A DNA stretch of 64,000 nucleotides from Chitinophagaceae bacterium. Lineage in GTDB: Bacteria > Bacteroidota > Bacteroidia > Chitinophagales > Chitinophagaceae. Location of the stretch: the NCBI GenBank assembly GCA_004322015.1, contig SCQT01000072.1, positions 1 to 64,000 on the forward strand, in the 5' to 3' direction. Of the stretch, positions 7,506 to 12,801 are shown piece after piece. The notes under the pieces are model-generated. The model saw only the letters and a program-made list of their open reading frames with translations. It had not been told where the DNA came from and searched no databases. The translations under genes were made by a program, and so were the position numbers. How positions within the stretch are numbered: position 1 is the first letter of the stretch; every line of letters begins with the position of its first letter.

Positions 7506-8755
7506 TTTTTAGATCAGGGGGCAAAAGCTCCTCATCAAAAACCATTGGTAATCAGAGGTGCAGGGCTAGTGAGTAAAACTACCCTTATTAAGCAGTTTGC
7601 GGAAAACTTTTTGCAATAAAATAAAACGTTAGAAAAAGAAGATAAAACACTTTTGTTTATAGATGAAATACAGGAAGTGCCGGAGGCTCTGAATATGCTC
7701 AGATATTTTTATGAGCAGGAACCTGAAATACCTGTTATTGCAACTGGGAGCATGCTTGAAACCTTATTTGATAAGAACATACATTTTCCGGTAGGCAGAG
7801 TAGAATATAAAGTGATGAGACCTGTTTCTTTCCCCGAATTTTTAGAAGCGATGGGAAAAACAGCAGCACTTGAACAATTAGTGCGTATTCCACTGGCCCC
7901 ATTTGCACAGGATAAGCTGTTCAATCTTTTCATACCTACGCGCTTATCGGCGGCATGCCGGAAATCGTAAATCATTATGCACAGTATAAAGACCTGACGA
8001 CGCTATCGCCTATCTATGACTCTTTGATTACTTCGTATATAGATGATGTGGAAAAATATGCAGCTTCTGCTACCCGGGTTCAGGTCATAAGGCATGTCAT
8101 ACGGTCTTCCTTTGCAGAAGCAGGTAAGCATATCGCATTTAACGGATTTGGCAATTCGAATTATGGGTTGCGGGAAGTGGGGGAAGCGTTGCGCTCATTA
8201 GAAAAGGCATTACTTATTCATTTATTGTATCCGCTCACCAATGCAAAGTTGCCCATGCTTCCAAATCTGAAAAAATCACCCCGTCTGATGGTATTAAATA
8301 CGGGTATGCTCAACTATTTTGCAGGTATTCAAAAGGATATTTTGCGAACGGCAGACTTAAATACCGTTTATCAGAGGACTATGATAGAGCATTTAGTAGG
8401 TCAGGAACTGCTCGCCACACAATCGAAAGTATTAAGCGATCTCTCTTTTTGGGTAAGGGAAAAGAAAACATCCACGGCTGAGGTTGATTATGTGCTTCCT
8501 TATGATGGCAAATTAATCCCAATAGAGGTAAAATCCGGAGCAGAAGGCAAATTACGATCACTTCATCTTTATATGGATATGGCTCCGCATACAACCGCTA
8601 TTCGTTTTTATGCCGGGCAGTTAAGCATCACTGAAGCAGTAACTCCAGAGGAAAAAGCCTATCATTTACTCAATCTTCCTTATTTCCTGGCTTCTCAAAC
8701 TAAACAATACGTTTTTTGGTCCCAAAAGCAACATTCAACTATGAACAATTCCTGA
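7506..8755 (+). pseudogene. Decayed AAA ATPase with DUF4143 C-terminus
   Basis: Translated fragments match the AAA_14/DUF4143 ATPase family. From about 7542 one reads PLVIRGAGLVSKTTLIKQFA, a P-loop in which the usual VGKTT is VSKTT; a stop (TAA) follows at about 7617. The frame continues with the Walker B-like LLFIDEIQEVPEALNML (from 7653). It then shifts at about 7940, where the downstream frame resumes as LIGGMPEIVNHYAQY and runs to 8755. The C-terminal part holds EVDYVLPYDGKLIPIEVKSG, the PD-(D/E)XK-like motif of DUF4143. No start codon in frame precedes the P-loop. One stop, one frameshift, a damaged Walker A and a missing N-terminus make this a pseudogene. Confidence 0.85.
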
Positions 8756-8905
8756 TAATCATTCATTAACAAGTTTTCAGAGATTTGTTATATTTCTTAA
8801 AAAAGTTTATCAGTAATCCGGCTATTCTTTAATAATCTGAAAAATATTTTGACGCTTCTTTCCAGCGGCATGGTAATGCCTGATCTTCCGTAACTTGCAT
8901 TGAAT

Positions 8906-11900
8906 ATGCCTTACAAGCCTCAAAATAAGATCCGTATTGTAACAGCCGCATCCCTTTTTGACGGACATGACGCTGCCATTAACATCATGCGCCGTATTCT
9001 CCAGTCGCAGGGTGCAGAGGTGATCCATCTGGGTCATAACCGTTCTGCCGCCGATATGGTGGAAACGGCTATTGAAGAAGATGTGCAAAGCATGGCCATT
9101 TCCTCTTACCAGGGCGGACACATGGAGTTTTTTAAATACATCTATGACTTGCTTCAGGAAAGGGGTTGTGGCCATATAAAGATATTCGGCGGGGGTGGGG
9201 GTACCATTTTACCGTCAGAAATAAAGGAATTGGAAGATTATGGAATCACAAGGATCTATTCCCCTGATGATGGGCGCAAGATGGGATTGACGGGAATGAT
9301 TGAAGATGTCATTAAGCGGTCCGATTTTAGCCTCCCCCTGGCCCCCTCCAGAGGAGGGGGGAGAGTGAGTGCTATTGCACGAGCTATTACTAATGCGGAG
9401 AATGGATTGGCTCATCCGTTGGCTAAACAGGAAGATTTGAATGAAAAAGATGCAAAGAAAAGCATGATCATAAAAGATTATTTATTAGCTGATCCGTTTT
9501 ATTATAAACAAATAAAGGAATATGCCTTAAAGCATCGAAAGAGCCCAACCAAAGCCGAATCCTTATTATGGGAAAAATTAAGAAACAGGAAGGAAGGATT
9601 TAAATTTCGCCGGCAACATATAATTGATAAATATATCGCTGATTTTGTTTGTTTACAAAAAGGTGTTATCATAGAAATTGACGGTAGTATTCACCAACTT
9701 CCTGAGATTAGTGAAAATGATCAAGTAAGAACTTCCAGACTTATTGAATTGGGTTTTGAAGTACTGCGTTTTTCCAATGAAGATATTTTGGAAAGGACTG
9801 ATGATACGCTCAAAATCATTTTCGAACATTTACGAAATCATAAAGATTACATAACTCCGACTGGGGGAAAAGCGACCATCAAGCGTCAGCTCTCCCCCTC
9901 TCTTGGAGGGGGCCGGGGGGAGGCCGTTATCGGCATTACCGGTACCGGTGGCGCGGGCAAATCCACCGTTACCGATGAATTAGTTCGCCGCTTTTTAAAT
10001 CAGTTTGAAGATAAAACGGTGGCCATCATTTCTGTAGATCCTTCCAGGAAAAGGACGGGGGGGGCGCTGCTGGGTGACCGTATTCGTATGAATACGCTTC
10101 CGCATCCGCGTGCATACATGCGTTCCATGGCTACGCGTGAAAGCGATAAAGCATTGAGCAGCTCGGTAAAAGATGCGTTGGAAGTCTGTAAAGCTGCAGA
10201 CTTTGATCTGATCATCCTCGAAAGTTCGGGAATCGGGCAGGGAGATACCACGATTACAGATTATTGTGATATATCCATGTATGTGATGACCCCCGAATAC
10301 GGCGCTGCCACACAATTGGAAAAGATCAACATGCTCGATTATGCCGATGTGATCGCTATCAATAAATTTGATAAGGCAGGCGCATTGGATGCGCTGCAAG
10401 ATGTGCGTAAACAGTATAAAAGAGATCGTTTATTATTTACGGCAAAGGATGCCGACTTACCCATCGTGGGGACGATTGCTTCCCAATTCAACGATAAGGG
10501 AGTGAATGAATTGTTTGAATGGATGTTGAGAAAGATCAAAGAAAAACGGGAGCTGCAGTTCGGGGAAATACCGCATTATGCACTTGATAATACTATTAAT
10601 AACTCTCAGATCATTCCGCCGCGACGGGTACGTTATCTGGCAGAAATAACGGAAACTATTCAGGAGAGAAAGAAGTGGATAAAAGAACAGTGCGAGGTGG
10701 CGGGCAAATTGTATCAGATCACTGGCGTTCAAAAATTAAAGCCTTTAAAAGAGCTGAAGCCGGTTAAAGAATCGTTTGAATCCCAACTTGATCCTGCCTG
10801 TAAAAAACTGATTTCCCGGTGGGAAAATGTGCAAAAGAAGTATGCAGCCGGTAATCTCGAGTATGCTGTGCGGGATAAAACAGTAAAGCACTCACTCTTT
10901 ATTGAAAGTTTGTCTCATACACGTATTCCCAAAATAGCCCTGCCGAAATTTCATGATTGGGGAGATATTCTCCGCTGGCAGTTGGAAGAAAATGTACCGG
11001 GAGAATTCCCTTATACCGCAGGCGTATTCCCTTTGAAAAGAGAAGGGGAGGATCCCACGCGAATGTTTGCGGGAGAAGGATCGCCTGAAAGGACGAATAA
11101 ACGGTTCCATTACGTTTCTTTAGACCAGCCTGCCAAGCGTTTATCCACTGCCTTTGACAGTGTAACCTTGTATGGAGAAGATCCCGATCGTCGTCCGGAT
11201 ATTTATGGGAAAGTGGGAAATGCGGGAGTAAGTGTCGCTACCGTGGACGATGCAAAGAAATTATACAGCGGTTTTGATCTTTGCGATCCAAAGACTTCGG
11301 TAAGCATGACCATCAACGGACCTGCGCCTATGTTGCTTGCTTTTTTCATGAATGCTGCCATTGATCAGCAATGTGAAAAATATATTTCAGAAAACGGCTT
11401 GTGGGATGAAGTGAATAAAAAGATTAAAAAGAAATTTAAAGACAAAAAACAACCGGTATATAGCCTCTCCAGTTCCCCCTCCTCTGGAGGGGGTCGGGGG
11501 GAGGCCCTTCCCGAAGGCAATGACGGGCTTGGCTTAAAATTGTTGGGTATATCCGGCGATGGAGTATTGGAAAAAGAAGTGTATGAAAAAATTAAAATAC
11601 ATGCGCTGAATGTGGTCCGCGGCACCGTGCAGGCAGATATTTTAAAAGAAGACCAGGCACAGAATACCTGCATCTTTTCCACGGAATTTGCTTTGAAAAT
11701 GATGGGGGATGTGCAGGAATATTTTATTAAAAACAAGGTGCAGAATTTTTATTCTGTCAGCATTTCCGGTTATCATATTGCGGAAGCGGGCGCGAATCCA
11801 ATTACCCAATTGGCTTTTACTTTGACGAATGGCTTTACTTATGTGGAATATTATTTGAGCAGGGGCATGCATATTGATGATTTTGCACCTAATCTCTCTT

Positions 11901-12718
11901 TCTTCTTCAGTAATGGGATGGATCCCGAATATGCGGTCATTGGAAGAGTAGCCAGGCGGATCTGGGCAAGAGCCATGAAATATAAATATGGTGGAAATGA
12001 ACGGTCCCAGAAATTAAAGTATCATATTCAAACCAGCGGCAGAAGCCTGCATGCGCAGGAGATTGATTTTAATGATATCCGTACTGCTTTGCAGGCCTTA
12101 TATGCTATTTATGATAATTGTAACTCACTTCATACAAATGCCTATGATGAGGCCATCACTACGCCTACCGAAGAAAGTGTGCGCCGTGCCATGGCCATTC
12201 AGTTGATTATTAATCATGAATTAGGCACCGCAAAAAATGAAAACCCTAATCAGGGATCTTTCCTGATCGAAGAGTTAACGGATCTGGTGGAAGAAGCTGT
12301 ATTGTCTGAATTTAATCGTATTTCAGAAAGAGGGGGGGTATTGGGAGCAATGGAAAGGATGTATCAGCGCAATAAAATACAGGAAGAAAGCCTGTATTAT
12401 GAATCCTTGAAGAACAGCGGCCAATTGCCTGTGATCGGAGTCAATACTTTCCTGAATAAAAATGGTTCACCTACCATTTTACCTGCCGAGGTTATCCGTT
12501 CTACGGAACAGGAAAAGAAAGAGCAAATCAACAGTGTAAAAGCTTTTCAGGAACACCATGTTGATAAAAGCAAGCAAATGCTGAAGCGTTTGCAGGAAAC
12601 AGCTGTGAAGAATGAAAACATCTTTAATGAATTAATGGAGACTGTGAAATATTGTTCTTTAGGACAAATCACACACGCTCTATATGAAGTGGGTGGACAA
12701 TACAGAAGGAATATGTGA
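8906..12718 (+). CDS. icmF: Fused isobutyryl-CoA/methylmalonyl-CoA-type mutase IcmF with DUF559 insert
   Basis: IcmF joins the B12-binding subunit, the MeaB-like GTPase chaperone and the acyl-CoA mutase barrel in one chain. Visible parts: B12 domain (residues 1-140, [15 protein letters not shown] with the cobalt-binding His); G domain starting [14 protein letters not shown] near residue 340; mutase domain (about 560-1270) ending [11 protein letters not shown] 8906 is preferred over the upstream TTG at 8900. The chain is about 1270 residues, while IcmF as I recall it is near 1090. The excess is a 154-codon DUF559 insert (9464-9925) just before the G domain plus short palindromic-repeat inserts. 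The frame is open throughout and the family motifs I can recognise are intact, so the enzyme is probably functional. Exact substrate (isobutyryl-CoA or another acyl-CoA) is not decidable here. Confidence 0.93.
9330..9366 (-). repeat. GC-rich palindromic repeat, copy 1 (inverted), inside icmF
   Basis: The core is CCCCCTCC-AGA-GGAGGGGG with outer arms GCCTCCCCC and GGGAGAG. Read on the minus strand it matches copies 2 and 3 almost base for base. In the icmF frame it encodes [13 protein letters not shown], placed after the B12 domain and before the native-looking linker [12 protein letters not shown]. Confidence 0.85.
9464..9925 (+). mobile_element. In-frame DUF559 (PD-(D/E)XK-like) insert with palindromic tail
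   Basis: These 154 codons interrupt the linker between the B12 and GTPase domains of IcmF. They begin at an in-frame ATG ([20 protein letters not shown]) and show the DUF559 pattern: [46 protein letters not shown], then [18 protein letters not shown]. The Asp of ADF, the Glu/Asp of EIDG and the His of IHQ correspond to the Vsr/PD-(D/E)XK nuclease core. There is no stop codon: translation runs through palindromic repeat copy 2 ([12 protein letters not shown]) straight into the G domain. No intein splice residues are present. It is either a stand-alone DUF559 gene captured in frame or a mobile unit that inserts into coding sequence. Confidence 0.8.
9890..9925 (+). repeat. GC-rich palindromic repeat, copy 2, inside icmF
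   Basis: The core is CCCCCTC-TCTTG-GAGGGGG, followed by GGCCGGGGGGAGGC. It is in the opposite orientation to copy 1 and the same orientation as copy 3. It encodes [12 protein letters not shown] and forms the 3' boundary of the DUF559 insert, two residues before the first beta-strand of the G domain. Confidence 0.85.
11464..11506 (+). repeat. GC-rich palindromic repeat, copy 3, inside icmF
   Basis: The core is CCCCCTCC-TCT-GGAGGGGG with outer arms GCCTCTCC and GGGGGAGGC. It encodes [15 protein letters not shown] in the icmF frame, between KQPVY and [10 protein letters not shown] in a surface-loop region of the mutase domain. Here the repeat stands alone, without a DUF559 domain. It has a 4-base extra (AGTT) compared with copies 1 and 2. 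Confidence 0.85.
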
Positions 12719-12729
12719 TCAAACCCCAA

Positions 12730-12792
12730 ACTTGGAACTTGGAACTTGAAACCCGGAACCCTGAACCCGGAACCCAAACCCCAAACCTGAAA
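12730..12792. repeat. Heptamer tandem repeats between convergent genes
   Basis: Degenerate 7-base units run across the gap between the 3' ends of icmF and the GMC gene: CTTGGAA repeated, then CCCGGAA/CCCTGAA repeated, then CCCAAAC units. The period of seven is kept while the word changes. No stem-loop terminator is evident for either gene. Confidence 0.75.
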
Positions 12793-12801
12793 CCGTTAAC
12801 C

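Follow-up and report, generated by a model that had tools for sequence, protein, structure and literature searches.

An in-frame DUF559 nuclease insert in the IcmF gene of a Chitinophagaceae bacterium, a probable member of a family of homing-like cassettes residing in bacterial genes

In the 64,000-nt window analyzed here (positions 1 to 64,000 of contig SCQT01000072.1, assembly GCA_004322015.1, from a Chitinophagaceae bacterium; "window" refers to this whole stretch), the gene for the fused isobutyryl-CoA mutase/GTPase IcmF contains a DUF559 nuclease domain, inserted without loss of frame into the linker that joins the B12-binding domain to the G domain. Comparison with other genomes revealed that DUF559 domains reside in frame in many other host proteins, and turnover of insert lineages at a given site is supported by related hosts that carry different inserts. 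We consider it likely that the insert in IcmF belongs to a family of non-splicing, in-frame, homing-like nuclease cassettes.

The DUF559 insert in IcmF

The icmF open reading frame (ORF), listed from a TTG at 8900, remains open through all inserts for 1270 codons when read from the ATG at 8906. Its product matched NCBIfam NF045497 (IcmF) with 1741.5 bits (cut-off, 1500) and PF04480 (DUF559) with 104.6 bits (cut-off, 20.6; E = 3.3e-30), which confirmed the DUF559 nuclease-like domain recognized in an initial annotation of the window. The 154 stop-free codons from an ATG at 9464 up to 9925 were as described there, and the GC-rich palindromic repeat said to end them was found adjoining the G-domain P-loop. 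These limits hold as far as they go, except that the left repeat lies farther upstream and a third palindrome stands alone (Table 1); the ATG regarded as the insert's own is present in IcmF but was not common to the other embedded copies among the flanks listed. All three palindromes are GC-rich and are translated inside the open frame. The left and right repeats are mutual inverted copies (local alignment score, 22.5 vs 13.0 for the 99.9th percentile of shuffled flanks), and GC content was 0.33 in the insert vs 0.44 in the host. With the 154 codons and the two other repeats taken out, about 1088 residues remained, in agreement with the approximately 1090 expected; the IcmF model has a length of 1076.

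No intein family was present among the Pfam and NCBIfam matches of the IcmF ORF (E up to 0.001), Rfam gave no match up to E = 1 in the region 8700-12800, so no group I or group II intron ribozyme was detected there, and Pfam matched no domain in the insert besides DUF559. The insert was therefore not classified as an intein or intron. Because the frame is kept and splicing modules are absent, the cassette would stay in the mature protein and not be excised. Removal of the insert before the protein acts, by protein splicing, as an intron or by ribosomal bypass over the arm stem, might draw on the near-complete pairing of the two repeats in cofolding (-82.3 kcal/mol, arms alone), which could form in the mRNA. 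It is nevertheless very improbable, as neither an intein family nor an Rfam match was found, little sequence lies beyond the nuclease domain, and the kept frame, the lack of stops and the purifying selection described below would be needless if the insert were skipped.

Presence and absence among IcmF orthologues

In a sample of 147 Chitinophagaceae genomes, IcmF was called in 129 at E = 1e-40 or better, and DUF559 lay inside it in only 5 of the 129 (among the PF04480 matches listed, unlisted ones being weak): the genome of the window (G000), one of the same genus (G030), G012, G038 and G140. Congeners without the insert were G128, beside G038, and G058, beside G140. Carriers with a whole frame measured 1274-1299 aa, and every other listed frame was no longer than 1188 aa. 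The linker was read directly in the 30 best-matching loci plus one to three others, including 26 non-carrier loci; for the remaining genomes, absence was judged from the PF04480 search of the same sample together with frame lengths. Related IcmF proteins had empty linker sites, the insert was patchy in distribution, and a fusion common to all IcmF orthologues was ruled out by the 5 carriers in 129.

A genome search for further DUF559 copies joined to repeats, as had been proposed, gave one more. PF04480 was matched in two places only in the genome of the window, icmF and the gene for leucyl-tRNA synthetase (LeuRS; locus L001), both in frame, and the L001 insert is also bounded by inverted repeats, differing in sequence from those of IcmF. 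Since a single LeuRS match was found in this genome (a draft assembly of 300 contigs, 97.4% complete), the insert-bearing LeuRS is presumably the working enzyme. In the initial annotation the insert had been read as a mobile insertion, with an old domain fusion to be expected if all related orthologues carried the domain, codon use were normal and the genome held no other copies. With 5 of 129 orthologues as carriers, an insert AT-rich relative to its host and a second in-frame copy in LeuRS, the reading as a mobile insertion is supported.

Host genes and genomes

DUF559 was present in at least 76 of the 147 family genomes, among the matches listed. When 127 full-length matches with E up to 1e-20 were sorted by the length of their frames, 61 were in frames of at least 370 aa, 65 in frames of at most 215 aa and one between. 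The control set comprised 200 genomes of the phylum to which a Brachymonas genome belongs; here, frames of at least 370 aa accounted for 8 of 100 such matches (Fisher p = 1.6e-11 for the difference); one of these eight, upon inspection, was a gene running from an intergenic start into what we take to be a murB-like gene, with no internal insert. A scan of named genomes with an alignment mostly of embedded copies placed 66 of 80 loci in frames of at least 370 aa (the best 80 of at least 574 confirmed relatives), and nearly all record names among these 80 were those of Bacteroidota groups.

At least 16 host families were split by inserts, as defined by the host's own model matching in two or more stretches: 1) the tRNA synthetases LeuRS, IleRS, ValRS and MetRS, 2) MetH, IcmF, AroC, CinA, adenine deaminase and HsdR, and 3) IspG, the ligase-associated DEXH helicase, RecG, UvrA, PaaZ and alpha-xylosidase. 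For the NCBIfam host matches, coordinates are available just for the best stretch; some of the loci are incomplete, and certain host scores fall below the curated cut-off (alpha-xylosidase, 475.7 vs 606; ligase-associated helicase, 800.5 vs 850). Cases with DUF559 ahead of the host match (LegC-type aminotransferase, LeuC, ArgB, HisA, ThrB and MurU) were not counted as internal, and a PglX-like frame (L074), a helicase-like frame (L082) and L084 were left out as ambiguous. Copies with broken frames are not recognizable as embedded by the method used and would escape detection, so that residence always in frame holds only for the visible copies. Carriers among named strains included Marivirga aurantiaca and Flavobacterium frigidimaris (MetH), Cellulophaga baltica (LeuRS) and Aequorivita todarodis (RecG). 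An assembly or binning artefact is conceivable for a draft of 300 contigs with many relatives that are metagenome-assembled genomes, but the same architecture recurs in these named strains and at the same sites in many genera, making an artefact exceedingly improbable.

Several further arrangements were noticed. In four family genomes (L046, L056, L063 and L073), DUF559 directly precedes argB in one open frame, flanked by inverted repeats; these copies form one clade (100/89) and mark a recurrent site ahead of the gene, not inside it. Two DUF559 inserts were present in single proteins at L052 and L069 (LeuRS) and L303 (MetH-like). A contig named Candidatus Nitrotoga (L301) has a MetH-like frame with a DUF559 insert, its host part being 58% identical to a Bacteroidota MetH, which is either a cross-phylum transfer or a misbinned contig. 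A contig from a viral collection (L317) encodes a close DUF559 relative (48% identity, 4e-33), far closer than other viral matches.

The nuclease domain

DUF559 has a metal-dependent fold. In alignments of 22 and 44 rows, the residues E, D, ExD, H and D were invariant, which we take to include the catalytic residues of the EDxHD motif of Vsr-like nucleases. The family profile matched the PDB sequences 3hrl (3.1e-31) and I-Bth0305I (3r3p; 1.4e-5, or 5.6e-7 with a second alignment), the latter being a homing endonuclease and the nearest characterized relative found. An AlphaFold2 model had a mean predicted local distance difference test score of 84.5, and its best Foldseek match was again 3hrl (8.5e-7), with I-Bth0305I in ranks 2 and 3 (3r3p_B, 3.0e-4) and 1vsr weaker (0.038).

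The proportion of nonsynonymous differences (pN, 0.004-0.178) was lower than that of synonymous ones (pS, 0.016-0.845) in all 8 pairs of inserts compared, the closest pair having too few changes to weigh. In terms of the rate ratio dN/dS, dS was infinite or above 2 in 4 of the 8 pairs; the other four gave 0.10-0.24, the highest value coming from a nearly unchanged pair. These values indicate purifying selection on the insert nuclease, which is predicted to be active. The initial description of the insert as a non-splicing, nuclease-bearing analogue of an intein fits this anatomy, with its conserved motif, its homing-endonuclease relative and the lack of intein and Rfam matches.

Phylogeny of the DUF559 copies

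In a first tree of 99 DUF559 domains, a clade of 55 rows (support, 99/93) included one free-standing copy. LeuRS site A required at least 5 changes, as counted by starred branches, and copies from LeuRS site A, LeuRS site B, AroC and the helicase were intermixed in one clade of 14. As long frames had been chosen on purpose, this tree was poor in free-standing copies of the family and was rebuilt with 54 more, giving 152 rows. A group of 55 rows appeared again, with L142 as its single free-standing member and the other 54 in longer frames; an inner set of 46 rows had a support of 100/91. The label embedded or free-standing changed 14 times on the 152-row tree vs a mean of 51 after shuffling. 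In these trees, most embedded copies thus form one lineage specialized for residence inside genes. Because some embedded copies (HsdR, IspG, the PglX-like frame, L117, L118, L120 and L138) lie outside the main group, this way of life may have more than one origin. The HsdR inserts (L017, L124, L126, L130 and L139), from several families of the phylum, form a well-supported clade, a second gene-dwelling lineage.

Insert lineages at shared sites

LeuRS is occupied at two sites, A (GAEIxF/LRVY) and B (before ETNTMPG), and both were filled in two genomes (L052 and L069). Empty site-A linkers were mostly 19-24 residues long. Judged by length, which gives a rough picture, site A was long in 20 of 108 rows from 107 genomes (two of them from class-level relatives and two from one genome), and site B in 3 of 65 genomes by the pattern used, which missed other site-B elements. 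Congeners without the LeuRS insert were G128 and G010.

Six congeneric pairs with an insert at the same site were compared, and in two of them (g1 and g44, both LeuRS) the inserts were of different lineages. For g1, identity was 87-88% between the hosts but 53% between the inserts; for g44, it was 89% (N part) and 81% (C part) between the hosts but 51% between the inserts. The hosts of either pair were mutual nearest relatives in the compared set, and the inserts were nearer to others. Keeping the paired inserts together was rejected by the approximately unbiased test (p = 0.013 and 0.0008), applied to about 110 alignment columns and to pairs picked after viewing the tree. In addition, G012 (72% complete) has two LeuRS genes (L057 and L072) whose site-A inserts belong to different DUF559 lineages; this genome is possibly a mixed bin.

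Anatomy of the element

The usual unit starts with the outer arm (GCCTCxCCC) and inner hairpin, followed by a short linker and the DUF559 domain; after a second linker, the hairpin and the outer arm return in inverted form (GGGxGAGGC for the arm), and the frame used has no stop codon. Of 69 elements, 42 had inverted arms with scores beyond the 99.9th percentile of shuffles, and the median pairing score was 15.0 for the own pair vs 9.0 for mismatched pairs. Free-standing copies of the family are flanked in a similar way: 37 of 55 frames (54 loci) exceeded their own 99.9th percentile (12.45), with a median of 16.0. GC content was lower in the insert than in the host in 49 of 49 embedded ORFs, as was third-position GC in 47 of 49. 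In LeuRS elements with a clear arm pair, the left repeat lay 46-118 nt from DUF559, with one exception at 138.

Lone palindromes

The site of the solitary palindrome in IcmF is filled by a full hairpin-DUF559-hairpin element in L269, L288 and L298, and the match to the IcmF model is interrupted at position 692/693 in L269, in L298 and in the window. The window and L269 are mirror images: in the former, the linker carries the full element and the second site a lone palindrome, and in the latter the reverse is true. At the linker, a palindrome without DUF559 was clear in 4 of the 26 non-carrier loci (L095, L099, L101 and L114); a loose rule of C-runs and G-runs flagged 5 of 5 carriers and 5 of these 26, L092 looking like chance. 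Four other places with the palindrome pattern were inspected in this genome: three are in long open frames, one of them presumably purH-like, and one is in no frame longer than 120 aa. Repeat-like remnants were also seen at LeuRS site B. Counts of solo palindromes at the LeuRS sites were discarded, as a simple finder gave chance matches in linkers of normal length and failed to detect decayed repeats. A palindrome that stands alone is either a landing site or a remnant.

Alternative explanations

Several findings weigh against a family of homing-like cassettes, and those on descent would be expected if the inserts were old domain fusions, inherited by descent and lost many times, in which the nuclease domain confers a regulatory or DNA-linked function on the host enzyme. 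The five IcmF copies form one clade (98/95 in the first tree and 100/94 in the 152-row tree), as do the five HsdR copies and the ArgB-associated ones, and the support of the 55-row group in the 152-row tree was modest (89/85). Four of the six congeneric pairs (g29 LeuRS-A, g8 LeuRS-B, g1 IcmF and g40 MetH) fit common descent, with inserts 71-99% and hosts 80-99% identical, and purifying selection on the insert is likewise compatible with a domain that serves the host. Among the genomes compared, there was no pair from a single species that differed in having the element, and no movement was observed. Because the copies at each site form one clade, the IcmF and HsdR sites can be explained by one gain with losses or by site-faithful spread, and for the IcmF site taken alone the trees would allow one origin with losses. 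As an account of the whole family, old fusions are nevertheless unlikely, given the unrelated host families (at least 16) with several sites per gene, the different lineages at one site in two of the six pairs with the test results above, the changes required at LeuRS site A, the GC content below that of the host in every embedded ORF, and the congeners of carriers that have no insert in IcmF (G128 and G058) or LeuRS (G128 and G010).

The other findings on this side concern the ends of the element. No significant arm pair was detected in 27 of the 69 elements, including 6 of 8 MetH elements. The own right arm was the best partner in just 19 of 69, which sharing of hairpin families would lead one to expect, and arms may match because the palindromes of one genome are alike. 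In IcmF, 143 nt including the native linker helix separate the left repeat from DUF559, which places host sequence between arm and domain. Visual comparison of six LeuRS locus pairs, whose site sequences were highly diverged, showed no target-site duplication, and no fixed target sequence was found among the compared sites. It is conceivable that the palindromes are the mobile units, similar to Rickettsia palindromic elements or repetitive extragenic palindromic (REP) sequences and moved by another enzyme, with DUF559 a passenger brought between two of them by recombination. Such a scheme would account for that intervening helix, for the palindromes without DUF559 at the IcmF linker and in other frames of this genome, and for the remnants at LeuRS site B. 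Its probability is small, however, since free-standing DUF559 genes are also repeat-flanked (in the 37 of 55 frames above), the catalytic residues are conserved and one lineage is specialized for life inside genes, all of which would be needless for a mere passenger.

Proposed mechanism

Homing-like cassettes remain the reading we favor, because of the kinship with a homing endonuclease, the occupation of one site by different lineages, the specialized lineage and the conserved active site. The cassette occupies a few tolerant loops of conserved genes, keeps the host frame and is translated as an additional domain of the host enzyme, which would go on working with its insert. By the proposed mechanism, the nuclease, made within the host protein, would cut alleles without the cassette, probably at or near the solitary palindrome of the same site, and repair from the cassette-bearing allele would copy the cassette in. 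The palindromes may serve as its target, form the ends of the element, or do both.

We see an even chance that these elements represent a new class of mobile element, in which a hairpin-bounded nuclease of the EDxHD type invades solitary in-frame palindromes of conserved genes, stays translated as a further domain of the host enzyme (also of the only LeuRS found in this genome), is swapped at its site by rival lineages and decays to lone palindromes, one lineage having radiated through the Bacteroidota into at least 16 host families.

Other features of the window

Coordinates of the features in and around the insert are given in Table 1. Upstream of icmF (7653-8755), two overlapping ORFs of 105 and 266 aa in different frames resemble, as read from the ORF list, one ATPase-type gene split by a frameshift.

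Table 1. Location of icmF, its DUF559 insert and the associated palindromes in the window
Feature	Position	Strand	Basis or remarks
IcmF (fused isobutyryl-CoA mutase/GTPase) host gene	8906..12718	+	NF045497; MeaB, B12-binding and MM_CoA_mutase domains
Left hairpin repeat	9330..9365	+	Translated in frame as 12 residues; 143 nt before DUF559
Linker from left repeat to the initially annotated insert	9366..9463	+	Holds native helix (11-12 residues) seen in empty IcmF
Insert as initially annotated, 154 codons	9464..9925	+	Sequence, ORF list
DUF559 nuclease domain, EDxHD / PD-(D/E)XK type	9509..9832	+	Residues 202-309, Pfam
Right hairpin repeat, inverted copy of left	9889..9924	+	12 residues in frame, directly before G-domain P-loop
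Solitary palindrome, same kind as the two repeats	11463..11505	+	In frame in IcmF

Comparison with known systems

Inteins that contain a homing endonuclease domain are similar to these cassettes in that a nuclease lies in frame inside conserved, often essential proteins, is patchy in distribution and occupies the same site in different hosts. Inteins sit at active-site motifs, whereas the cassette has no splicing module, would stay in the protein, is bounded by DNA palindromes and sits in variable loops. I-Bth0305I (PDB 3r3p), an EDxHD homing endonuclease, has a related catalytic domain by profile and fold; it was deposited as a mobile intron protein, but no intron was found around the IcmF insert. 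Taylor 2011 and Dassa 2009 reportedly deal with the EDxHD family. Homing endonucleases of this family are already known, as stated in PMC3943268 and PMC9403480, the latter of which places a DUF559 gene in the EDxHD family.

RAYTs, the transposases associated with REP sequences, are HUH tyrosine transposases. REP/RAYT systems resemble the present elements in that palindromes flank a gene of nuclease type and are found as solitary copies as well; unlike them, DUF559 has an EDxHD/PD-(D/E)XK fold, and DUF559 elements frequently lie within genes. Free-standing DUF559 genes (PF04480, PRK09767, PDB 3hrl) have the same domain and many are also flanked by inverted repeats, but they are short ORFs and the embedded lineage is a separate group. 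DNA transposons and miniature inverted-repeat transposable elements have terminal inverted repeats; by the shuffle test used here, such repeats were seen in 42 of the 69 elements and were not seen in the other 27. Palindromic repeats that are in frame in genes and translated are described in PMC10969869 and PMC3733652 for Rickettsia palindromic elements and intragenic REPs, to which the three palindromes in the IcmF frame are similar. The Rickettsia elements are short, and the passages on them describe no nuclease domain, whereas in the present case a conserved nuclease ORF lies between the two repeats. Searches of openly licensed papers in PubMed Central yielded no description of DUF559 cassettes that are in frame and non-splicing. 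The cassettes are best regarded as a variant of homing-endonuclease elements, with a fair chance of being a class of their own.

Conclusions

Selfish nucleases inside genes are thought to need splicing to spare the host, a point made for introns and inteins in PMC3943268. The cassettes appear to manage without splicing, by keeping the frame and using tolerant loops. If this is true, many enzymes of one bacterial phylum, including essential tRNA synthetases and repair enzymes, would bear an extra nuclease domain, a concrete route to new domain fusions would be at hand, and the spread of DUF559 genes and GC-rich palindromes would become directly testable. The cassettes also provide natural maps of insertion-tolerant sites in well-known enzymes.

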